DNA of 22,291 bases from positions 1 through 22,291 of the IMG/VR virus record IMGVR_UViG_3300022542_000409; one strand, written 5' to 3'. The first letter of the stretch is position 1. Each line of letters starts with the position of its first letter. Origin of the DNA: a virus. Below, in pieces: positions 2,173 through 12,223 of this stretch. A model generated the notes under the pieces. It was not told the DNA's origin. It saw nothing but the letters and a program-made list of their open reading frames with translations, and ran no database searches. Both the position numbers and the translations under genes were made by a program.

Positions 2173-3084
2173 ATGCCCGCAATTCTGCCCGTTGTTCGTA
2201 ATGAGCAAAACCGCTTCACTATAGTCCGTCTGCATTATTCGGCAGATAGTGAAAAAGCCACGCCCGAATGGATAGAAGAAGCTAGTCGGGGTATGCCGAA
2301 GCGTGGATGGATGCGTGAGTACGAGATCGACTACAGCGTGTATGAAGGCAAGGCATTCTTCCCGGAGTTCAAAGACTTCAACATCAAAGAGGAAACCTAC
2401 CGCAACCGAGAGACAATCTATCGAGGTTGGGATTATGGTTTCCATCGACCGTGCGTTCTCATCACCAAACTCAACCAGTTCGATCAGTGGTCGTGGATTG
2501 ATCTGATCTTGGGTAAGGATGAAGGCATCATGGAGTTCGGGAAGAGAATAAGGAAGTATTGTATTACCAGGTTCCCTGGAGCTTATTACGTGGATGTGGG
2601 TGATCCCGCCGGTGAAGCGATCAGCGATAAAAGTGAGAAGACATCGGTGCAGATCCTCGAGTCGCTCGGGATCTTTGTGCGTTCCCGGAAACAGCCGATC
2701 AAACAGGGAGCTGAGATCATTCGTCAGAAGCTACCGATGCGGGTAGATGGTCGTCCTGGCATCATTGTTCATCCCAAACTCACTTATGTTGTTGATGGGT
2801 TTAAGGGTGGGCTCCACTACCCAGAGCCAAAAGAAGGTCAACCTCAAAGAGAGTTCTACGCAAAGGATGGTTTTTACGATCACATCTTCGATTGTGGTCG
2901 TTACCTTGCTACTGATATGTTCACGGTCATCGGTGAACAGCAAATGCCTAATAAGCTGAATATGGACACTGAGGAGGATCGATATCGCATGGGTCGACCG
3001 GTGGACGAATCACCTGGCAACGATCTCAATGATCTTGCCAGCGAATTAACGAGCGACTCAACGGATTTGGGAGGGTTCTTTTAA
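2173..3084 (+). CDS. terL: Terminase large subunit, nuclease domain only
   Basis: A 303-residue protein matching the C-terminal RNase H-fold nuclease of phage large terminases, which cuts concatemeric DNA during packaging. The acidic metal-binding positions are visible: D87 in RGWDYG, D141/D144 in YVDVGDPAG, and D236/D240 in YDHIFDCGRY. Residues 15-65 (VRLHYSAD, then WMREYEIDY and EGKAFFPEF) match the linker that normally follows the ATPase domain. That ATPase domain, with Walker A and B, is absent; full TerL proteins are usually around 450-600 residues. The start looks genuine: ATG 2173 has AAGGAA at correct spacing and abuts the preceding stop. The acidic Ser/Thr/Asp-rich C-terminal tail overlaps the next gene (TAATG). 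The ATPase is presumably a separate gene upstream. Confidence 0.87.
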   Translation: MPAILPVVRNEQNRFTIVRLHYSADSEKATPEWIEEASRGMPKRGWMREYEIDYSVYEGKAFFPEFKDFNIKEETYRNRETIYRGWDYGFHRPCVLITKLNQFDQWSWIDLILGKDEGIMEFGKRIRKYCITRFPGAYYVDVGDPAGEAISDKSEKTSVQILESLGIFVRSRKQPIKQGAEIIRQKLPMRVDGRPGIIVHPKLTYVVDGFKGGLHYPEPKEGQPQREFYAKDGFYDHIFDCGRYLATDMFTVIGEQQMPNKLNMDTEEDRYRMGRPVDESPGNDLNDLASELTSDSTDLGGFF

Positions 3085-3317
3085 TGTTTGACGAAGAGAA
3101 TTTCTTGGCTTACCTCAAGAAGAATAAGCCATATCTTTATGACATTGAGATACAGGTAAATAAACTCAAAGAGTCTGGCGGATATGGCGACATCTCAATT
3201 GCGATCTCAATGACCAAGAGCGTCGTCGATCGGGGGGAGATAATGATGAGTATCAGACGCTTGTATGTCCCGAGAAAAAACAATCGGATCATTGACAGTG
3301 AAAACAAAGAAGTGTAA
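3084..3317 (+). CDS. Small hypothetical protein after terminase
   Basis: A 77-residue protein starting in a TAATG overlap with the terminase stop. It has a charged, helix-prone N-terminal half (ENFLAYLKKNKPYLYDIEIQ) and a basic C-terminus (YVPRKNNRI). A promoter-like TTGACA (3292-3297) lies within its last codons, so the DNA here may serve two purposes. I do not recognise a family and see no catalytic or metal motif. Confidence 0.6.
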   Translation: MFDEENFLAYLKKNKPYLYDIEIQVNKLKESGGYGDISIAISMTKSVVDRGEIMMSIRRLYVPRKNNRIIDSENKEV

Positions 3318-3321
3318 AAAT
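3292..3321 (+). promoter_or_regulatory. Candidate sigma70-type promoter P1
   Basis: A perfect -35 box TTGACA (3292-3297) is followed by an 18-base spacer ending in TGT and then AAAAAT (3316-3321); TAAAAA at 3315-3320 gives the alternative 17-base spacing. The TG ahead of the -10 resembles an extended -10. It sits in the tail of the preceding gene, just before a hairpin and a terminator-like element. A second TTGACA with the same surroundings occurs at 9647. Confidence 0.5.
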
Positions 3322-3328
3322 ATAGCAG

Positions 3329-3342
3329 AGCCATTAGTGGCT
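3329..3342 (+). other. Leader hairpin in unit 1
   Basis: AGCCA (3329-3333) and TGGCT (3338-3342) form a perfect 5-bp stem with a TTAG loop. It lies between candidate promoter P1 and the AAGGAATAAC motif. The related unit at 9647 lacks this hairpin, which accounts for most of the length difference between the two leaders. Confidence 0.45.
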
Positions 3343-3344
3343 GA

Positions 3345-3380
3345 AAGGAATAACTCCCCTCCAAAGTGTGGGGTTTTTTT
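3345..3380 (+). terminator. Motif plus weak intrinsic terminator in unit 1
   Basis: AAGGAATAAC (3345-3354) is followed by CCCC (3356-3359), a 10-base loop, GGGG (3370-3373) and seven Ts (3374-3380). The stem is short, so as a terminator it is weak. The GGA of the motif could alternatively pair with TCC just downstream (3355-3357), giving a competing structure. The next gene's ATG follows only 7 bases after the T-run. Confidence 0.5.
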
Positions 3381-3387
3381 GTATAAA

Positions 3388-3714
3388 ATGACAGAATATG
3401 ACAATATCAGTGAACTAGAGCTCAAAGCCCAGATCGAGGAGGCGATTGAGGATAATGATCTCGATGAGGCGAAGGAATTGATGCAACAACTTATTTCATT
3501 ACAAGAAGATGCCCCCAAGCTCTCGCTGACAGACGAAGAGCTCTCCGAAATGGGCGTAGATATGATGCTCGTCCAGAAAGAACGCCGTTTAGCTAAAGCT
3601 ATAAAACAAGCTGAGCAGGACGGCGATTTTATTGAGTCAAAGCGATTGATGCGAGAATTAAGAGTTACTCAACAATTACAACCCGTACAACCGGGAGTGA
3701 GGATAGGAAAATGA
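3388..3714 (+). CDS. Charged helical protein upstream of portal
   Basis: A 108-residue, strongly charged protein, probably all helical with coiled-coil character. It contains an internal near-repeat: EEAIEDNDLDEAKELMQQL is echoed by KQAEQDGDFIESKRLMREL about 55 residues later. Both read as a helix, a short acidic turn and another helix, so the protein probably arose by duplication. I chose ATG 3388; the open frame extends upstream to 3265 but passes through the terminator-like element. There is no clear ribosome binding site before 3388, so the start is uncertain. The end overlaps the next gene (ATGA). Function is unknown; a packaging or head-assembly role is only suggested by position. Confidence 0.6.
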   Translation: MTEYDNISELELKAQIEEAIEDNDLDEAKELMQQLISLQEDAPKLSLTDEELSEMGVDMMLVQKERRLAKAIKQAEQDGDFIESKRLMRELRVTQQLQPVQPGVRIGK

Positions 3715-3956
3715 CCAACACGGACAGGGTGGTTACATACATCCTAGAAAATACCAAAGATTTATCTGCCGCCAAAATCAAAGCGATGGCTGAAGTAGTC
3801 AAATCGCTTGGTGGTGAGGTAGAAACAGCACCCAACGAAATGCCTGCCACAGAAGATCCAAACCTGATGGATGAATCCGCACCCATAGATCTAAGCAAAG
3901 TTAAAAAAGTAGAAGTTGATGGGCGTGAAACCCCGCTCAACATATATAAAAATTAG
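3711..3956 (+). CDS. Small acidic hypothetical protein
   Basis: An 81-residue protein with an N-terminal helical part (DRVVTYILENTKDLSAAKIK) and an acidic, Pro-rich centre. It ends in a VKKVEVDGRETPLNIYKN segment that looks like a short strand pair. The start overlaps the previous stop (ATGA). Its stop lies 14 bases before the portal start. No family is recognised; it travels with the portal gene and may be a minor head component. Confidence 0.6.
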   Translation: MTNTDRVVTYILENTKDLSAAKIKAMAEVVKSLGGEVETAPNEMPATEDPNLMDESAPIDLSKVKKVEVDGRETPLNIYKN

Positions 3957-3970
3957 GAAGGCGGTCAATT

Positions 3971-6274
3971 ATGGCTACTCCAGGCAGAGGCGAAATGAAC
4001 TTCGTTGAACCGGGTAATATGACCGACGAAGAGATCCTTTACCGAGCAAAGAAGAGGGATGATCGGCATAAAGCCGAGACCCTGTTCAAGTCCGCTTCGG
4101 ACGCTCGGAAACGATATGATTGGGAATGGCTGACCCGAGACCTCTTTCGTCGGGGTTATCACTTTTCCCGGTACAACCCATCAAATAGAACGGTAGTGTT
4201 GCAGACTCGATCGGTAGCTCGAATCCCTATCAACATCACCAACGCTCAAATGCGTACCATTAAAAATCAGGTGACTTCGGTTAGACCCAAGTGGGAAGTT
4301 CTACCCATTGGTCTATCAGATGAGGCACAAACTAACGCTCGGTATTCCGGGCGGGCTCTTGATTACTACTACGATCATTTGAATCTGAGACGGATGCTGA
4401 AAGAAACAATTATCCAGGGTTTGATGTACTCGGTCGGTGGTCCCTGGCAAGTAGGCTATGATCCTGATGGTGGAGAGAACGGTGAAGGCGATATCTTTAT
4501 TTGGTTGATTGATCCATTTGATTTCTACATTGATCCTGCCGCCATTTCACTCAAAGATGCTGAGTATGTTATCAAAGCGGTGCGTACTTCACTCAATAAA
4601 ATCCGAGCCAACCCGAATTACACATTCGAGGTCAATCCGATGGATTTGAGGGGTGAAATGAGGCTTGCCGCCAGTGAGTACAAGCAGTTTCTACTTCAAG
4701 CTTTGAAGTATTACCAACCTCGGTCAACTGAGGACGAGGATGAGGGTCTTATTCTCAAAGAGGCAATGATTAAAGTCCACATCCGAGAAGACAATCTGGA
4801 AGAGGTAACGGAAGAGCTGAAGCGAAACGACCAAGATACGGACGATTTGAGGATCGGCGAGGTGGTCATGAAAGCGATCACCTATATCGATGAGCAAGAA
4901 AGTCCGCTTGAGTACAAGTTCATTCGTAAATCTCACTTTCCTTATGCTTTGTTTAGTGCTGATGTGAATCCGATGGAGATTTACGGCGAGTCCTGGATCA
5001 AACATGTGATCCCAATGAACCGAGCACTTAACGCCTTGGAGTCTTCTGTGTTCAGATACAACTACAAGTATGCAATTGGTCGGCTTGTTATTGATAAGAA
5101 CTCGGGCGTGAGGATATTCACCAACGAACATGGCGACATCATCGAGAAGAACGCCGGTGCCGAGGTGACATCGCTTGCGTTGCAGTCATTACCCGGTAGC
5201 TACAAAGATCAAATCACCAACATGCGAATGTATATGGAAGATGTGGGCGGAGCTCACGAGGTTTCAATGGGTCGGGTGCCTTCTGGAGTTAAATCCGGGA
5301 TCGGTATCGCTGAGCTGAAAGCCGCCGATGCGGTGAACCAGCAGGATCTCATTGATGGCTTGGAAGAGTTTTTGACTGACGTAGGTCAAAGAGTTCTTGG
5401 TGAGATCGCTGAAAACTTCGACGTTCCTAAGATGATGAAAGTGCTTGGTAAGGGTGGAGACCCAGAACATTTCATGGTCATTGGTGAAGATAATGCTAAA
5501 GGTCGCAAGAATAAACGTGAGGTCAAGATTGGTGCTGACACCTTCGATCTAGCAGTTATCGGCAAAGATAATGAGATTCGGGTCTCAGTTGGATCATGGT
5601 TGGCTTACACTAAAGGAGCTCGAATGGAGCAACTTAAAGAGTGGCACAATGCCGGACTGATTGACCAAAAAACTTTCCTTGAACACGCTGAGTTCGGAGA
5701 TGTGCAGGATATTGTCGATCGCACCAGACAGGAGAAACATTTAGAGCAGTATCAAGAAATCGAAGCCGCTGGTGGTACGGGGGCAACCGATGAAGAGATT
5801 GCCCGACAAGAGAATACGATGATGGTACAAGAGAAACGAACCGATGTGGTTCCGCTCGCTGAAGACCGACATCAGATTCACTTGATGATTCACCAAGAAA
5901 CTCTCGGCTCTGACGGTGATGAAATAGTCGAAGAGCACATGAGTATCCACGAGCAATACATCAAAGAGGGAGTGAAGCCACAAGCTGAAACCGGAGCACA
6001 ACTTCAGCCGCAGGTTGCTACACCAGAGGGATTACCTCCAACTGGTATGGCTCCTGGGTTAGCTATGCCTCCCGGAATGGGTGGCGGAATGGGCGGTGGA
6101 ATGCCCGGAGCATTCGGAGTACCTTCGGGATCTCCTGAAGAGGATGCACTCATACAATCATTAATGGAGGTTATGGCTCCCGCCGCCGGAGGAGGTATGC
6201 CACCAGGTATGCCACCAGGAGGGGGAATGATGGCACCACCAATCCAAGCACCGGTGCCACCGATGCCAATTTAA
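3971..6274 (+). CDS. Portal protein with Gly/Met/Pro-rich tail
   Basis: A 767-residue protein with the features of a phage portal, the dodecameric ring at the capsid vertex through which DNA enters and leaves. The N-terminal part contains an AQMRTIKNQ helix and the typical portal motif DPFDFYIDPAA (181-191). Further on come the stem/crown-like helices (SWIKHVIPMNRALNALESS) and a GAHEVSMGRVPSG segment. Roughly the last 85 residues are low complexity, made of GGGM, PPGM and PP runs, and would be disordered. The start has GGAAGG upstream. The length is at the upper end for portals and resembles podovirus portals. The neighbours (terminase before, scaffold and capsid after) support the call. Confidence 0.88.
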   Translation: MATPGRGEMNFVEPGNMTDEEILYRAKKRDDRHKAETLFKSASDARKRYDWEWLTRDLFRRGYHFSRYNPSNRTVVLQTRSVARIPINITNAQMRTIKNQVTSVRPKWEVLPIGLSDEAQTNARYSGRALDYYYDHLNLRRMLKETIIQGLMYSVGGPWQVGYDPDGGENGEGDIFIWLIDPFDFYIDPAAISLKDAEYVIKAVRTSLNKIRANPNYTFEVNPMDLRGEMRLAASEYKQFLLQALKYYQPRSTEDEDEGLILKEAMIKVHIREDNLEEVTEELKRNDQDTDDLRIGEVVMKAITYIDEQESPLEYKFIRKSHFPYALFSADVNPMEIYGESWIKHVIPMNRALNALESSVFRYNYKYAIGRLVIDKNSGVRIFTNEHGDIIEKNAGAEVTSLALQSLPGSYKDQITNMRMYMEDVGGAHEVSMGRVPSGVKSGIGIAELKAADAVNQQDLIDGLEEFLTDVGQRVLGEIAENFDVPKMMKVLGKGGDPEHFMVIGEDNAKGRKNKREVKIGADTFDLAVIGKDNEIRVSVGSWLAYTKGARMEQLKEWHNAGLIDQKTFLEHAEFGDVQDIVDRTRQEKHLEQYQEIEAAGGTGATDEEIARQENTMMVQEKRTDVVPLAEDRHQIHLMIHQETLGSDGDEIVEEHMSIHEQYIKEGVKPQAETGAQLQPQVATPEGLPPTGMAPGLAMPPGMGGGMGGGMPGAFGVPSGSPEEDALIQSLMEVMAPAAGGGMPPGMPPGGGMMAPPIQAPVPPMPI

Positions 6275-6275
6275 T

Positions 6276-6932
6276 ATGAACCGAGCGAAGCTAATCAAAC
6301 TACGCAATAACATCCAATCGTATTTGGATTTCATTGAGCGTGAGGATAAGTTGGGGAAACTCGACAATATTATCAACGATCATACGTCCGTGCAGATTGC
6401 TTCGCTAATGGAGAGCATTGAGGAAAAGTTTGAAAACTTACCCACAGCCGATGTGGATAACTCGGAGCTGATTGGGGCAATTGAGGGTTTGGGTGATCGG
6501 TTCAAGCCGACAGACATGGAGCCGTTCGTCGAGGCGATTAGTGATATTCGCTTCCCGGAAGTCAACTTCCCCAAGACGATCAGTGTGGATAACTTCCCGG
6601 TGCAGAAATACCCGATGCCAGTTACCAACATAAACATCAACGGGCTCAAGGGACCGATTAAGTCTACCGCCATCACGGTTGGCTCCACAGCCGTTCCGCT
6701 TCCGGCTACTGCTTTGTCTAGTCGTCGTTCGTTGATTGTTTGGAATAACGACAACAGTACGACTCTCTGGATTGGCGGGTCGGATGTAACAGTCGCTAAT
6801 GGAATCCCGGTGAAGAAACAAAACTATTCCCCGGCTCTTGATTTAGCTGACACTGTACATCTGTACGGTATCACCAGTGGATCAGATATTGATGTTAGAG
6901 TATTAGAAAGTAGCATGAGTTCTACCGGATGA
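6276..6932 (+). CDS. Virion protein: helical anchor plus beta domain
   Basis: A 218-residue protein in two parts. Residues 1-55 are helical (KLIKLRNNIQSYLDFIERE) and closely resemble the N-terminus of the small protein at 9459. Residues 128-212 form a beta domain with hydrophobic strands (STAVPLPATALSSRRSL, TTLWIGGSDVTVANGIPV, VHLYGITSGSDIDVRVLE). This type is common in phage head and tail genes and probably decorates the virion. Between them is a Phe/Pro-rich linker (FPEVNFPKTISVDNFPV). It begins one base after the portal stop and overlaps the next gene (ATGA). No enzyme motif is visible. Confidence 0.65.
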   Translation: MNRAKLIKLRNNIQSYLDFIEREDKLGKLDNIINDHTSVQIASLMESIEEKFENLPTADVDNSELIGAIEGLGDRFKPTDMEPFVEAISDIRFPEVNFPKTISVDNFPVQKYPMPVTNININGLKGPIKSTAITVGSTAVPLPATALSSRRSLIVWNNDNSTTLWIGGSDVTVANGIPVKKQNYSPALDLADTVHLYGITSGSDIDVRVLESSMSSTG

Positions 6933-7330
6933 CCAGAATAAGCGGAGCTACCAATTTAGATTTCGATAACATCACCCTCAACATCGATGAGCTTGAGGAA
7001 TTGGCGGGCAAAGTTCTTGTCCACGAGTTCGGTTCTAGCTCCATCGGAGCGTTAAGCACCGTTGTTTTAGCGACCCATACGGTGGGAATCGGTAAGAAGG
7101 TGCGGATTAAGGGAGTATTTATGGAGGGTGAAAATGATGCACTTTACGAACTACTGGTCAACGGCACCGTTGAATGGCAGGGGCGTAACGCATGGACAGA
7201 GCGAAATACGCAAATGGCAGTTGAGGTGGAGGCAGGTGCAGGGTTGGATATTGAACTGCAAGCGACTAATCTCAAAAACCAAATAAATGACTTTAGTGGA
7301 GGATTTTATGGATACGAACTTAACGCTTAA
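6929..7330 (+). CDS. Small beta-sandwich virion protein
   Basis: A 133-residue protein dominated by alternating hydrophobic strands: STVVLATHTVGIGKKVRIKG, then ALYELLVNGTVEWQ, then GLDIELQATNLK. It ends in GGFYGYELNA. The pattern resembles small jelly-roll or decoration-type phage domains and the C-terminal domains of the genes at 7541 and 8288. The start overlaps the previous stop (ATGA), and the end is overlapped by the next gene's start at 7308. It is probably a surface or neck component; which one cannot be told. Confidence 0.55.
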   Translation: MTRISGATNLDFDNITLNIDELEELAGKVLVHEFGSSSIGALSTVVLATHTVGIGKKVRIKGVFMEGENDALYELLVNGTVEWQGRNAWTERNTQMAVEVEAGAGLDIELQATNLKNQINDFSGGFYGYELNA

Positions 7331-7520
7331 ACAGGAGCTAGATCTCGCCGAGCTGGAAGATAAACCAGCAATGTTCAAGTTGAAACAGAGGCAAATCAAG
7401 CGAGAGATTATGAAAATGCAAATTAAAATCAAGGCTTACGAGGAATCAATTGAGCTCCTGGATGGAGAGATTGAGGAAGCCAAAAAAGAATACGCCGATT
7501 ATAAAGCCAGTTTGAAATAG
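7308..7520 (+). CDS. Short coiled-coil protein
   Basis: A 70-residue, highly charged protein, apparently one long helix with heptad-like hydrophobic spacing (LKQRQIKREIMKMQIKIKAY, then ESIELLDGEIEEAKKEY). ATG 7308 is chosen over upstream codons because TGGAGGA ends 5 bases before it. It overlaps the end of the preceding gene by 23 bases. Lys and Glu dominate. It could be a scaffold-like or assembly-helper peptide, but no family is recognised. Confidence 0.6.
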   Translation: MDTNLTLKQELDLAELEDKPAMFKLKQRQIKREIMKMQIKIKAYEESIELLDGEIEEAKKEYADYKASLK

Positions 7521-7540
7521 TTAGGAGGTGAACAGAAAAA

Positions 7541-8197
7541 ATGGCAGATTACGATAGTTCTTTACCAATAAGAACAGAAACAGATGCGGATGTCGGAGCC
7601 GCAATCTTCGACGCAACAGGCACCAATGCCTGGAATATTGATGCTAATAACATTGGTCACGTCAACCTAGACGATGGCACAAATGCCTTAGTGATTGGAC
7701 CAAATGGAGAGATCACAGTCATCATGACTGATGGTACAGACACAGTAGCGATTGATGGAAGTGGGAATCTTTCAACTCTCATTACCGATGGAACCGATGT
7801 CTTGGCAATCAATACCGATGGATCAATTAACGTCAACATCATTGATGCAGTACAAGGTGGAGAAGTCCACGAGTATGCTTTAAGTGCCGCAGTTGCCGCA
7901 GGAGCTACGGTCGATGTAGTTTCTTACACGGTGACAGCCGCAACCACTCTCATTTTGAGGGGTTGGCAGGCATCTAGCTCGGGCAAGGCAAAGGCAGTTT
8001 TGAGTGTTGGACCAGCCACAACCGAGGTTGACCAAGCAGTACGCTTCATTAGTACATCTAACGGTGGATTTAACGAAGCATTGCCGGAGGCGATTGAAGT
8101 TGTTGCCGGTGACAAGGTTTTGGTGACGATGACTAACAACGAACCAGGACAAGCCGTAGATCTATACGCATGGATCAACGGTAGAGAAGTAGCATAG
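7541..8197 (+). CDS. Beta-repeat virion protein (DGTD repeats)
   Basis: A 218-residue protein. Residues 23-99 hold four tandem units of 19-20 residues, the last three on the pattern DGT(D/N)xLxIxxDGSxxV. Such repeats probably stack as a beta-prism or beta-helix, as in phage fibres and spikes. Residues 108-218 form a separate beta-sandwich-like domain (TTLILRGWQASSSG, DKVLVTMTNNEP, VDLYAWINGREVA). TAGGAGGTGA precedes ATG 7541. The gene is followed by a strong hairpin. It is probably a virion surface protein with a stalk and a head domain; the target is unknown. Confidence 0.7.
   Translation: MADYDSSLPIRTETDADVGAAIFDATGTNAWNIDANNIGHVNLDDGTNALVIGPNGEITVIMTDGTDTVAIDGSGNLSTLITDGTDVLAINTDGSINVNIIDAVQGGEVHEYALSAAVAAGATVDVVSYTVTAATTLILRGWQASSSGKAKAVLSVGPATTEVDQAVRFISTSNGGFNEALPEAIEVVAGDKVLVTMTNNEPGQAVDLYAWINGREVA
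7607..7837 (+). repeat. Four tandem 19-20 codon repeats
   Basis: The units cover residues 23-42, 43-61, 62-80 and 81-99 of the preceding protein. The first is degenerate (ATGTNAWNID), and the other three keep DGTN or DGTD at the start of each unit. The DNA copies have diverged, so this is an old protein-level repeat and not a recent slippage product. Confidence 0.7.
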
Positions 8198-8229
8198 TCC
8201 ATCTCTGCCCGAGTGGATTATGTAGCGAA

Positions 8230-8263
8230 GTGGGCGGGGTAGCATTGGCTACCCCTCACCCAC
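8230..8263 (+). other. Strong intergenic hairpin
   Basis: GGGGTAGC (8236-8243) and GCTACCCC (8248-8255) form a perfect 8-bp stem with an ATTG loop. GTGGG (8230-8234) and CCCAC (8259-8263) extend it after a small internal loop. No T-run follows, so it is not a standard intrinsic terminator. Upstream CTGCCC (8205-8210) could pair with GGGCGG (8232-8237) instead, which would break the outer stem and part of the inner one. It may act as an RNA-processing or mRNA-stability element. Confidence 0.65.
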
Positions 8264-8287
8264 ACAATAATGATATAAAAGGAAGTA

Positions 8288-8932
8288 ATGGCAGATTTAC
8301 CATTTCAGACACAAGACGTATCAGTTAAGGATAACTTGACTGGTAAGTTCGGTTTTGTAAATGACAGCAACGAGCAATTAGTTCACGACCAAGACGCACT
8401 AACCACCTTGGAGGAGATTAGGGATGGCACGATTGTTATTTCAGGTAGTGTGACGACAAGTTGGGAATATTATTCTTCAAATGACCAGGCTTATGTAGTT
8501 ACTTATGCGGCTCAAATTACCGGAGGTGCCACCGAACAAGACTTTGTGCTAATAAGAAATCCTGTCGCTAGTGGGGTTCATTGCAGATTAAAAGGGTTTA
8601 CGTTCTCGATAACAACCAACACTACTGGTTCATTTAGGGTTTATCGACAAGCATCCATAACTACCTCTGGAACGACTCTTAATATTGGCAACTTCAGAAC
8701 TAAGACTGCCACTGGAGTTGTTGGTGCTTATAGCATTCCGACTGTTTCAGCTAGAAATAATCTTTTTTGGCAATTTGATCTTAACGCTGGCGGAGTTGGC
8801 ATAGTTCAAGTCGATGCTGGATTATCACTGATTCTTTTGGAGGGTGATGATTTGCTTTTTACACTAGAGCAGGGTTCAAATAATAACAAGTTTTCAATAA
8901 ATATCACCTGGGCGGAGGAGGATATAACGTAA
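8288..8932 (+). CDS. Beta-rich virion protein
   Basis: A 214-residue protein with no enzyme motif. Residues 1-55 are a short lead-in, and residues 60-214 are dominated by strands (DFVLIRNPVASGVHCRLKGF, TGSFRVYRQASITTSGTTL, GLSLILLEGDDLLFTLEQG, NKFSINITWAEE). This fits a jelly-roll or receptor-binding type domain like its neighbours at 6929 and 7541. GGAAG precedes the ATG. It overlaps the next gene (TAATG). Probably a decoration or fibre-associated protein. Confidence 0.6.
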   Translation: MADLPFQTQDVSVKDNLTGKFGFVNDSNEQLVHDQDALTTLEEIRDGTIVISGSVTTSWEYYSSNDQAYVVTYAAQITGGATEQDFVLIRNPVASGVHCRLKGFTFSITTNTTGSFRVYRQASITTSGTTLNIGNFRTKTATGVVGAYSIPTVSARNNLFWQFDLNAGGVGIVQVDAGLSLILLEGDDLLFTLEQGSNNNKFSINITWAEEDIT

Positions 8933-9216
8933 TGTCACAATATTTATATACAACTACTATCTACACAGAAACCGATAATGTGATTGGAATAAATGTAACT
9001 CAAAATAATATTGATTTAACAGATTATGAAAATAACCATCAATCAGATACGGTAAAAGTGACTGAGTTACAGATTGCAGAAACCACATTCAAAAGCGATT
9101 TGAGTTATGTCGATTTTGACGCTTTAATAGTTGCTCCTTATGATTGGGGAGATGTTAAGGAAGTGAATGGTGCTGGTAGTTACAATCTTTATTTAATTAC
9201 TAGCGAACCGATATAG
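8932..9216 (+). CDS. Small hypothetical protein
   Basis: A 94-residue acidic protein rich in Thr, Asn and Asp with short beta-prone segments (YLYTTTIYTETDNVIGINV, YNLYLITSEPI). It starts in a TAATG overlap with the previous gene. Its TAG stop is built into the TAGGAGG ribosome binding site of the next gene. No family is recognised. It is probably translated together with the beta-rich protein before it. Confidence 0.6.
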   Translation: MSQYLYTTTIYTETDNVIGINVTQNNIDLTDYENNHQSDTVKVTELQIAETTFKSDLSYVDFDALIVAPYDWGDVKEVNGAGSYNLYLITSEPI

Positions 9217-9223
9217 GAGGCTT

Positions 9224-9391
9224 ATGGCATCAAAATACGGCTATCAGGTCAAACAAATACCGTCAGGGGCAACTACTCAGCAGATTGAGGATGCTCTTAA
9301 TACATACGGAGCGAAAGGTTGGGAGGTTATTCAGTTTATTCAAATTGGCTCCAATCTTTATGTAACAGCCAAAAAGATATTGGTACAATAA
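9224..9391 (+). CDS. DUF4177-like small protein
   Basis: A 55-residue protein with the DUF4177-type layout: a first strand (YGYQVKQI), a helix (QQIEDALNTYGAKGWEV) containing the characteristic GWEV, then two short strands (IQFIQIGSN, LYVTAKKIL). DUF4177 proteins are small alpha-beta proteins of unknown function found in phages and bacteria. TAGGAGG precedes the ATG at ideal spacing. The last base of its stop is the first base of the next start (TAATG). Confidence 0.7.
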   Translation: MASKYGYQVKQIPSGATTQQIEDALNTYGAKGWEVIQFIQIGSNLYVTAKKILVQ

Positions 9392-9462
9392 TGGGAATAG
9401 CATTGATATTGATATTAGTAGCAGGATTGTTGATGTTAGCTATTTGGAGGCAGGACGAATGA
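9391..9462 (+). CDS. 23-residue single-pass membrane peptide
   Basis: The frame from ATG 9391 gives 23 residues: a hydrophobic stretch (MGIALILILVAGLLMLAIW) followed by RQDE. The positive charge after the helix suggests N-out, C-in. It is locked in by a TAATG overlap with the gene before and an ATGA overlap with the gene after. The GGAGG for that next gene lies within its codons. This tight setting makes it more credible than a random short frame. It could be a holin-like or host-membrane-acting peptide; no function can be assigned. Confidence 0.55.
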   Translation: MGIALILILVAGLLMLAIWRQDE

Positions 9463-9650
9463 AGTATGATATCAATAAGCTTAAAGCTCTTCGGGATAAT
9501 ATCGATCAGTATTTGGAAGTAGAGCGTGATAGAGGGTCGAAGATTGAGGATGAGGTGCAGAAAAGAGTTTCGGAAGTAGTGGATAGTGAGATTAAACCAT
9601 TATTAGAAGAATTTAAGCAATACTTAGACGACAAAGCTGAAAGTAATTGA
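9459..9650 (+). CDS. Small coiled-coil protein sharing an N-terminal module with the 6276 protein
   Basis: A 63-residue, highly charged helical protein. Its start (KLKALRDNIDQYLEVERDR) closely parallels residues 5-23 of the protein at 6276 (KLIKLRNNIQSYLDFIERE). The rest is acidic helix (EVVDSEIKPLLEEFKQYL). It is essentially the helical anchor without the beta domain. The start overlaps the previous stop (ATGA), with GGAGG upstream. Its TGA stop lies inside the TTGACA of candidate promoter P2. It may bind the same virion partner as the longer paralogue. Confidence 0.62.
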   Translation: MKYDINKLKALRDNIDQYLEVERDRGSKIEDEVQKRVSEVVDSEIKPLLEEFKQYLDDKAESN

Positions 9651-9676
9651 CACACTCGAATAGAGTGTGGTACAAC
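9647..9676 (+). promoter_or_regulatory. Candidate sigma70-type promoter P2
   Basis: TTGACA (9647-9652) is followed by an 18-base spacer and TACAAC (9671-9676), with TG at 9668-9669 as an extended -10. The spacer contains the inverted repeat CACACTC/GAGTGTG (9651-9669), which could be an operator since it covers the core promoter. Layout and distances match P1 at 3292. Confidence 0.5.
9651..9669. repeat. Perfect inverted repeat inside promoter P2
   Basis: CACACTC (9651-9657) and GAGTGTG (9663-9669) are perfect 7-base arms around a 5-base centre (GAATA). No T-run follows. Its place between the -35 and -10 elements fits an operator for a dimeric repressor or activator. It would also form an RNA hairpin if transcribed from upstream. 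Confidence 0.5.
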
Positions 9677-9687
9677 TAATAGACAGT

Positions 9688-9731
9688 AAGGGATAACCCC
9701 GCTAGTCCATCGTGGACGAGGCGGGTTTTTT
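9688..9731 (+). terminator. Motif plus intrinsic terminator in unit 2
   Basis: AAGGGATAAC (9688-9697) leads into a long hairpin: CCCGC (9698-9702) pairs with GCGGG (9721-9725), and GTCCA with TGGAC inside, around a TCG loop. Six Ts follow (9726-9731). This is a convincing Rho-independent terminator. The GGG of the motif could instead pair with the first CCC through an ATAA loop, a possible switch. The layout repeats that at 3345. Confidence 0.75.
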
Positions 9732-9768: not shown

Positions 9769-9975
9769 ATGTACGTTGACCAAGCCGAGTACAAACGAGC
9801 CAAGCGTGAAGCTAATAAGATGAAGAGGAAGTATGGCTTCGAGTCTGATGTCGAAATGGTCGACAAAGATTATGCCCACGTTCCCTCAAATGTATCTCAA
9901 AGTGCCAAAGGTGGCAAATCAAATCTTCGCAAGGCAAGCGAGATGAATATGAAGCGTTTTGGTTTAGATAGATAG
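9769..9975 (+). CDS. Small basic hypothetical protein
   Basis: A 68-residue basic protein with an N-terminal helix rich in Lys/Arg (EYKRAKREANKMKRKYGF) and a polar Ser/Lys/Gly C-terminus (NVSQSAKGGKSNLRKAS). I chose ATG 9769 because GAAAGGTG lies just upstream. A longer frame from GTG 9712 would read through the terminator hairpin and is unlikely. The stop TAG merges with the next gene's ribosome site (TAGGAG). It is one of four small polar proteins placed just before or after the capsid genes; possibly a minor capsid or DNA-binding component. Confidence 0.6.
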   Translation: MYVDQAEYKRAKREANKMKRKYGFESDVEMVDKDYAHVPSNVSQSAKGGKSNLRKASEMNMKRFGLDR

Positions 9976-10533: not shown

Positions 10534-11295
10534 ATGGCAGATTTGCCAAAGGCTGACGATAAACAGCCACCGGCTTCGCCACCGGAAGATAAATCAACGG
10601 GTTCAACTGAGCCGGATAAAGCAGGAGAGGGTTCGCAACCTCAATCCGATCCAGAAGAGACCGGGAGTAGTGGAGCTGAATCTCGTATTCGTAAGCTCTC
10701 TGCCGATAAGAAAAAGCTTGGACAAGAAGCAACTTATTGGAAAGAAGTAGCTGAAAGATACGCCAAGACTGACTCACAAAGAGTCACGACACCAGCACCA
10801 CAAACGACACCGCCAACCGATCAATCCGTTCCGGCTTATCAGAACGAAGAGGTTGAGAGGGCGTACAGAACATTAAAAGAGAGAGGCATGGTTACGAAGG
10901 AAGAGCTCGAAGGCTACCTCACTCGCATGGAGTGGGATCGCAAGCATGACCGAAACGTCGTTGAAATCAGTTCTAGGAAGGGTTTACCCGCCTATGATCG
11001 AAACGAAGTAGAAAGTCACGCACGAGAGAAGGGCATTTCCGATCCAATGGCGGCTTATAGAGATCTCTATTTCGATGAGATCCTAGACGCATCCAAACGG
11101 GGCGGAACTAAACCAAAATCGACCAAACCAACCACGCAAAAACCATCCAAACCAGCAGGCGATACTCGCCAGCCGATGGATCTTGATTCGTTTCGAGAGA
11201 AACTCAATGGACCAAAGGGTCGAGAGTTTTACGAGAAACTGAGTCAGAATCCTCAAGAGTTTGACGAGGTTATGAAAGCTCTCTCCGGTTCATAG
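10534..11295 (+). CDS. Capsid scaffolding protein
   Basis: A 253-residue protein with the features of a phage scaffold, which templates procapsid assembly and then leaves or is degraded. The N-terminal 50 residues are acidic, Pro/Ser-rich and disordered. A helical stretch follows (SRIRKLSADKKKLGQEATYW), then a Thr/Pro linker (about 85-100) and mixed charged helices. The C-terminal helix-loop-helix (DLDSFREKLNGPKGREFYEK) may bind the coat protein. A basic Lys/Pro/Thr linker (about 190-210) separates the last part. It directly precedes the major capsid gene, the classic position. AAGGAGG lies before ATG 10534. I see no protease motif. Confidence 0.8.
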   Translation: MADLPKADDKQPPASPPEDKSTGSTEPDKAGEGSQPQSDPEETGSSGAESRIRKLSADKKKLGQEATYWKEVAERYAKTDSQRVTTPAPQTTPPTDQSVPAYQNEEVERAYRTLKERGMVTKEELEGYLTRMEWDRKHDRNVVEISSRKGLPAYDRNEVESHAREKGISDPMAAYRDLYFDEILDASKRGGTKPKSTKPTTQKPSKPAGDTRQPMDLDSFREKLNGPKGREFYEKLSQNPQEFDEVMKALSGS

Positions 11296-11362: not shown

Positions 11363-12223
11363 ATGGCAAACTTTACCACAACCACATCAGCAGTTTTTAT
11401 TCCCGAGGTATGGTCGGTTGAAACCTTACGTGCCGCTGAGAGAGCCCTAGTTATGGCTCCTTTAGTCAAACGCTACGACACTTTAGTCAAACAACGTGGA
11501 GACACCATTCACGTTCCCCATGTGTCTAATCTGACCGCCAACGATAAAACTCAAGATAGTGAAGTTACTCTACAGACCGTCACTGAGACCGAAACCACAA
11601 TCGCCGTCGATCAATGGAAGGAAGTATCCTTCGAAATCGAAGACATCGTGAAAGTACAGTCACAGTATGATCTCAGGAGTGAATACACCAGTAAAGCCGG
11701 TTATGCAATTGCTCAATCAGTTGATACCGATCTTTTCGGGTTGATTCCTTCACTTACCAGCACTCCAGTTGGAGTTTATGGCACCGACATCGACGATGCA
11801 GAAATCGTGGCAGGACTTCAAGTTCTTGACGTAGAAGACGCTCCTCTCGAGGATCGTTTCTTCATCATCGCTCCAAGTCAAAAAGCCGCAATTATGCAGT
11901 TAGATAAATTTGTGAAAGCAGATTATCTCGGCGAATACGACATGCCAACTCCAGTGAAAAAAGGTCCGAACAACAGATATTTATGGGGCGATATATATGG
12001 AATCCCAACCTACTACACCAACCAGGTTCCTATAGCCGCCGCAACTCCTCTTGAAACATCTAACGTGATGTTCCATAAGGAAGCATTCGCATTAGCTTTA
12101 CAGCTAAGTCCACGAACTCAAGCTTCCTACTGGCAAAAAGACCTAGCATGGCTCGTAACTTGTGACACTATCTACGGCGTAGAAGTGTTACGTGACACCT
12201 TTGGTGTCGAGATTCGATCCTAA
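11363..12223 (+). CDS. Major capsid protein (HK97 fold)
   Basis: A 286-residue protein fitting a phage major capsid protein. The start (SAVFIPEVWSVETLRAAERA) is the usual N-arm. It is followed by the strand pair around RGDTIHVPHVSNLTAND, an E-loop-like VTLQTVTETETTIAVDQWKE, a long helix (SEYTSKAGYAIAQSVDTDLFG) and A-domain strands (DRFFIIAPSQKAAIM, GDIYGIPTYYTNQVP, SNVMFHKEAFALALQL). The pattern matches the coat proteins of many podo- and siphoviruses with a separate scaffold. Length is in range. GGAGGTGAGA precedes the ATG, a strong ribosome site suited to an abundant product. A large hairpin follows the stop. Confidence 0.9.
   Translation: MANFTTTTSAVFIPEVWSVETLRAAERALVMAPLVKRYDTLVKQRGDTIHVPHVSNLTANDKTQDSEVTLQTVTETETTIAVDQWKEVSFEIEDIVKVQSQYDLRSEYTSKAGYAIAQSVDTDLFGLIPSLTSTPVGVYGTDIDDAEIVAGLQVLDVEDAPLEDRFFIIAPSQKAAIMQLDKFVKADYLGEYDMPTPVKKGPNNRYLWGDIYGIPTYYTNQVPIAAATPLETSNVMFHKEAFALALQLSPRTQASYWQKDLAWLVTCDTIYGVEVLRDTFGVEIRS

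Follow-up and report, generated by a model that had tools for sequence, protein, structure and literature searches.

The 22,291-nucleotide (nt) stretch analysed here (positions 1–22,291 of the IMG/VR virus record IMGVR_UViG_3300022542_000409; hereafter the window) is a piece of an uncultured tailed-phage genome and carries two copies of a compact promoter–terminator unit, unit 1 (3292–3380) lying just 5′ of the portal block and unit 2 (9647–9731) just 5′ of the scaffold/capsid block. The conserved element of each unit is an 11-nt mini-hairpin, i.e. three Watson–Crick pairs around a 5-nt loop, which abuts or overlaps the terminator. We give an even chance to the reading that these units constitute a late-gene antitermination switch, in which a factor acting in trans would bind the mini-hairpin and thereby let transcription from attenuated late promoters pass the terminator.

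Both units were found where the original prediction had placed them and with the same order of parts: TTGACA and, after an 18-nt spacer, a −10 with TG extension, then a short leader, GGRATAACYCC and a GC stem followed by 6–7 T. In unit 1, the −35 TTGACA (3292–3297, + strand) lies inside the 3′ end of g8, the promoter being kept at the same junction in relatives, and is separated by the 18-nt spacer with its TG extension from the −10-like AAAAAT (3316–3321, + strand; alternatively TAAAAA, 3315–3320), with an RNA start expected near 3328. The sequence AAGGAATAAC (3345–3354) runs into the mini-hairpin GGA(AUAAC)UCC (3347–3357, + strand), and the predicted intrinsic terminator (3356–3380, + strand) comprises a CCCC/GGGG stem (3356–3373) and 7 T. 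A second hairpin, AGCCA-ttag-TGGCT, can be drawn at 3329–3342 of this unit but is not clearly conserved. In unit 2, the −35 TTGACA (9647–9652, + strand) overlaps the stop codon of g18, the extended −10 TACAAC (9671–9676, + strand) is preceded by TG at the same 18-nt spacing, and RNA would be expected to start near 9683; AAGGGATAAC (9688–9697), the mini-hairpin GGG(AUAAC)CCC (9690–9700, + strand) and a predicted intrinsic terminator with a CCCGC...GCGGG stem (9698–9725) and 6 T (9698–9731 overall, + strand) follow. TTGACA is indeed rare in the window (6 occurrences on both strands vs. 16 expected), with three sites on the + strand (3292, 9647 and 20353), but the original prediction, which noted only one other, overlooked three more on the − strand.

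Between the −35 and −10 of unit 2, an inverted repeat, CACACTC-gaata-GAGTGTG (9651–9669, no strand assigned), was read directly from the sequences. Comparable repeats with different arm sequences occur in the −35/−10 spacer in L094 (9942–9959) and L137 (5501–5520), being weaker or absent elsewhere, and in some capsid-block units a protein could bind this repeat within the promoter spacer, as Q does.

Taken alone, the window showed no enrichment over shuffled sequence in either promoter-like (30 vs. 32 expected) or terminator-like sites (17 vs. 16 expected), so that the case rests on relatives, which are uncultured phages in IMG/VR. Portal and capsid searches returned 14 and 58 related viral loci, respectively, and later 48 and 80 with alignments. 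The unit recurs among them with its order of parts unchanged and at the same pair of gene junctions, g8/g9 for the portal block and g18/g19 for the scaffold/capsid block, as had been anticipated for related phages, and both copies are carried by the window and five further contigs (G001, G002, G003, L005 and L101). The two units are also the two top-scoring promoters of the window and, likewise, of G001 (50.9 kilobases, kb). The chance-level counts within the window would suit an insulator, where the terminator ends upstream transcription, the hairpin and the promoter-like match having no part in it; this we regard as highly improbable, since promoter, hairpin and terminator recur together and in the same order in relatives and the hairpin is at chance at promoterless terminators.

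That last point comes from two enrichment sets. Among 28 non-redundant promoter–terminator pairs picked without reference to the hairpin, 18 carried a hairpin of three base pairs and a 5-nt loop at the terminator, where 3.7 were expected (0 of 20,000 simulations), while loops of 3, 4, 6 and 7 nt were at chance in the same pairs. With a slightly wider position window, the hairpin was present at 18 of 30 promoter-linked terminators (4.7 expected) and at 22 of 116 promoterless ones (17 expected), and the lack of excess at the latter rules it out as a general feature of terminators.

Pairing in the mini-hairpin is strongly conserved. When 18 close units were anchored on nothing but the loop, all 54 pair cells were Watson–Crick, with 18 double-sided changes, and the covariation score (0.876 vs. 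0.351 in shuffles) collapsed when the columns were slid by 1–3; the covariation that the original prediction proposed to look for is thus present. None of the 54 cells held a G-U pair and a fourth pair was never formed in the 18 units. The compensated change at the R of AAGGRATAAC is real, and the same holds for many further stems: GGA, GGG, GAG, AGA, GCG and GTA occur, and distant units also have GTG, GGT, CGG and TGG. At least 13 stem-pair changes with pairing kept (at least eight on the portal tree and at least five on the capsid tree) were counted, totals that are less strict than the 18-unit covariation because the distant rows of both trees were assigned from hairpins already found. AAGGRATAAC itself is present in both window units, whereas what is conserved among relatives is the 11-nt hairpin and not these letters as such; ATAG(A)CAG, put forward as a second shared motif, is missing from relatives. 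A Shine–Dalgarno role for AAGGRA was ruled out, as relatives have GAG, GCG, GTA or AGA there with pairing kept.

The loops are AUAAC, AGAAC or UUAAC (ANAAC/UUAAC) in close relatives, with further A-rich loops in distant ones. In all six of the genomes compared, loop positions 2–5 were identical between the genome's two units while the stems mostly differed (P = 0.017; P = 0.05 with one near-duplicate removed); this agreement is weakly indicative, lying in the direction expected if a genome-specific factor were to read the loop. Rfam gave no match above gathering score in 90 kb, and at a permissive threshold the best sub-threshold matches in the units were at chance level only.

The relation of mini-hairpin to terminator differs across the family. 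In close relatives, as in the window, the mini-hairpin overlaps with its 3′ arm the outermost 1–3 bases of the terminator 5′ arm, so the two structures are mutually exclusive there, and the competing hairpin of the original prediction stands to that extent; in distant relatives it is clear of the terminator (by 1–3 nt from the stem in L096, L105, L111, L122, L131 and one L101 unit). The overlap would agree with a simple factor-free attenuation in cis, with the mini-hairpin competing with the terminator and its strength fixing the level of readthrough. We think this unlikely: pairing is kept in those units with no overlap, folding mostly favours the terminator, and loop length and letters are constrained beyond the needs of competition. 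As competition holds for part of the family only, pairing must be kept for another reason or for its own sake. The original suggestion of an attenuated promoter for the portal and capsid blocks fits the conserved anatomy and synteny, except that the hairpin does not generally compete.

The antitermination switch that we favour would work as follows; the anatomy, synteny, conserved pairing and loop-length specificity of the units are observed, and promoter activity, termination, factor and timing are all inferred. A strong host-type sigma-70 promoter would fire without activation, and an intrinsic terminator ~50 nt downstream would halt nearly all transcripts as short RNAs. The 11-nt mini-hairpin, emerging just ahead of the terminator, would be the site recognized by a factor acting in trans, probably a protein that the phage makes earlier in infection. 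Binding would stabilize the weak mini-hairpin and block completion of the terminator stem, or else modify RNA polymerase; in close relatives the outer bases of the terminator 5′ arm would be trapped, and in distant ones the hairpin would sit directly against the stem. RNA polymerase could then read into the portal and scaffold/capsid operons together. The switch is favoured because stopping the transcript of a strong promoter at ~50 nt would serve no purpose unless the stop could be released, and the presence of two units, one per structural operon, suggests a shared factor.

Closely spaced promoter and terminator also look like a small RNA gene, and the units could instead encode trans-acting small RNAs of ~45–55 nt, the ANAAC-loop hairpin binding a target or chaperone and the terminator forming the normal RNA end. 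The loop being the best conserved part would suit such a gene. The units are, however, always directly before late operons with no other promoter evident there, body sequence outside the hairpin is not conserved among units, and terminator loops vary freely (across relatives, the unit terminators are too variable to align); we therefore judge a small RNA gene unlikely as well.

Several observations weigh against an antitermination switch. Relatives L009/L092, L011 and L014 keep a pre-portal promoter with neither terminator nor hairpin, so that the switch is dispensable in some lineages, and the distant promoter–terminator units of L143, L144, L149, L150 and L151 lack the exact hairpin. By itself the mini-hairpin is weak and is rarely part of the minimum-energy fold; to function, it would have to act while the RNA is being transcribed or gain stability from a protein. 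Proteins of the late-end, early and replication regions of G001 yielded neither a known antiterminator family nor NusG, sigma or RNA polymerase among the best 25 of 59 PHROG families. A search for the host through prophages gave no relative in 84,980 genomes.

In L092, L011 and L014, an ATG follows within a few bases of the pre-portal promoter, which suggests that late mRNA may be leaderless or near-leaderless in these relatives lacking the pre-portal unit. Among early-region promoters, the best of G001 (40234) and of G002 (34865) have the same look, with a start codon directly after and, unlike the two units, no terminator, which speaks for the switch. In five larger phages (L205, L207, L214, L219 and L225), a TTGAC-type promoter precedes a GGGATAACCCC hairpin that has no terminator after it, at one site each by the patterns tried; these sites are probably unrelated and were set aside. 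A stricter promoter pattern search of the DNA gave no match.

More tentatively, and with rather less than an even chance in our estimation, the 11-nt hairpin fused to the terminator may be the only cis signal of a phage antitermination system. Its reader would be a phage protein not described so far, which would co-ordinate the portal operon with the capsid operon and would have co-evolved, phage by phage, with the loop. The hairpin, standing next to a strong promoter at both structural operons, offers a handle for finding a new antiterminator, and if three base pairs suffice it would rank with the smallest signals used in antitermination, helping to understand termination and providing a compact genetic part. 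Alternatively, the element could act as DNA: at a pause near the promoter, the non-template strand of the bubble would fold into the hairpin and recruit a factor there, as ops does for RfaH. The transcription bubble is ~11 nt, near the size of the element, and the exact 3 + 5 + 3 nt layout, the lack of G-U and of a fourth pair, and a location 8–34 nt past the −10 all speak for this possibility. It is nevertheless quite improbable: no NusG paralog was found among the scanned G001 proteins, and the hairpin always lies against the terminator and at no fixed distance from the promoter, which points to RNA.

As for the factor itself, a zinc-ribbon protein gene (855–1358 of the window) is conserved beside terminase in unit-bearing phages, but is a weak candidate with nothing beyond conservation in its favour. 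The scanned G001 proteins include DnaB, RusA, methyltransferases, S-adenosylmethionine synthetase and ParB-like proteins, the synthetase being encoded together with DNA methyltransferases and a ParB-like protein in L075–L076 (G001 34.7–50.8 kb).

Unit 1 precedes g9, g10 and the portal gene and follows g8 (3084–3317), whose 3′ end holds its −35. Gene g9 (3388–3714, + strand) is the first 3′ of unit 1, its start lying 7 nt past the T run without a Shine–Dalgarno sequence, a layout comparable to that of several relatives; g10 (3711–3956, + strand) is a small gene of the portal block conserved in relatives, and the portal protein (3971–6274, + strand) matches phrog_156. Similarly, g18 (9444–9650), with its stop codon overlapped by the −35 of unit 2, is followed by g19 (9769–9975, + strand), the first gene 3′ of that unit, by a putative scaffold gene (10534–11295, + strand) assigned by position and conserved in relatives without a family hit, and by the major capsid protein (11363–12223, + strand; phrog_267 match). 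The terminase large subunit gene (2173–3084 in the window; 1864–2772 in G001) represents the nuclease part only (303 amino acids). A conserved gene of its own, lying upstream, may encode the ATPase part, a candidate by position only being G001 48918–49658 (246 amino acids, conserved in G002 and G003). In L013, the portal-match reading frame (8001–9122) contains two standard-code stops, possibly through a frameshift or sequencing error.

Among known systems, lambda N/nut boxB resembles the units in that a phage operon leader holds a small RNA hairpin whose 5-nt loop is rich in A, and the GAAAA (L122) and GGAAA (L124) loops of distant relatives resemble boxB loops. In contrast to boxB, the stem in close relatives has three base pairs and not five, the loop is ANAAC/UUAAC and not GNRNA, and the hairpin adjoins the terminator; no boxA-like element was recognized by eye in the units. 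The RAT of LicT/SacY is ~30 nt, has internal loops, belongs to host sugar operons and forms a protein-stabilized hairpin that overlaps the terminator 5′ arm, whereas the overlap between mini-hairpin and terminator here is only 0–3 nt. HK022 put is likewise a structure in phage RNA, close to the promoter, that is expected to suppress termination, but it is ~70 nt, has two long stem-loops and acts without protein (PMC9378689), compared with the single 11-nt hairpin of our units. In LoaP/dfn, a small leader hairpin with a downstream intrinsic terminator is bound by a protein that permits readthrough; the dfn hairpin has a UNCG tetraloop and lies in a leader of 417 nt, and LoaP is a NusG paralog (PMC12691694), as opposed to an ANAAC pentaloop in ~50 nt here and scanned G001 proteins in which no NusG domain was found. 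The unit would appear to be a variant of phage antitermination/attenuation that is functionally like lambda pR′/tR′ with Q, where a late promoter and then an intrinsic terminator likewise stand before the late genes. Readthrough past tR′ needs a phage factor, and Q binds DNA between the −35 and −10 and requires a −10-like pause element (PMC6606751). No Q-like protein was found in the scanned G001 region among the best 25 of 59 PHROG families; inspected by eye, ATAAC/AGAAC do not end in T as a −10 element does, and they stand at varying distances from the promoter. What distinguishes the present units from the Q system is a conserved element that is a transcribed hairpin of three base pairs set against the terminator, a leader of ~50 nt and two units per genome.

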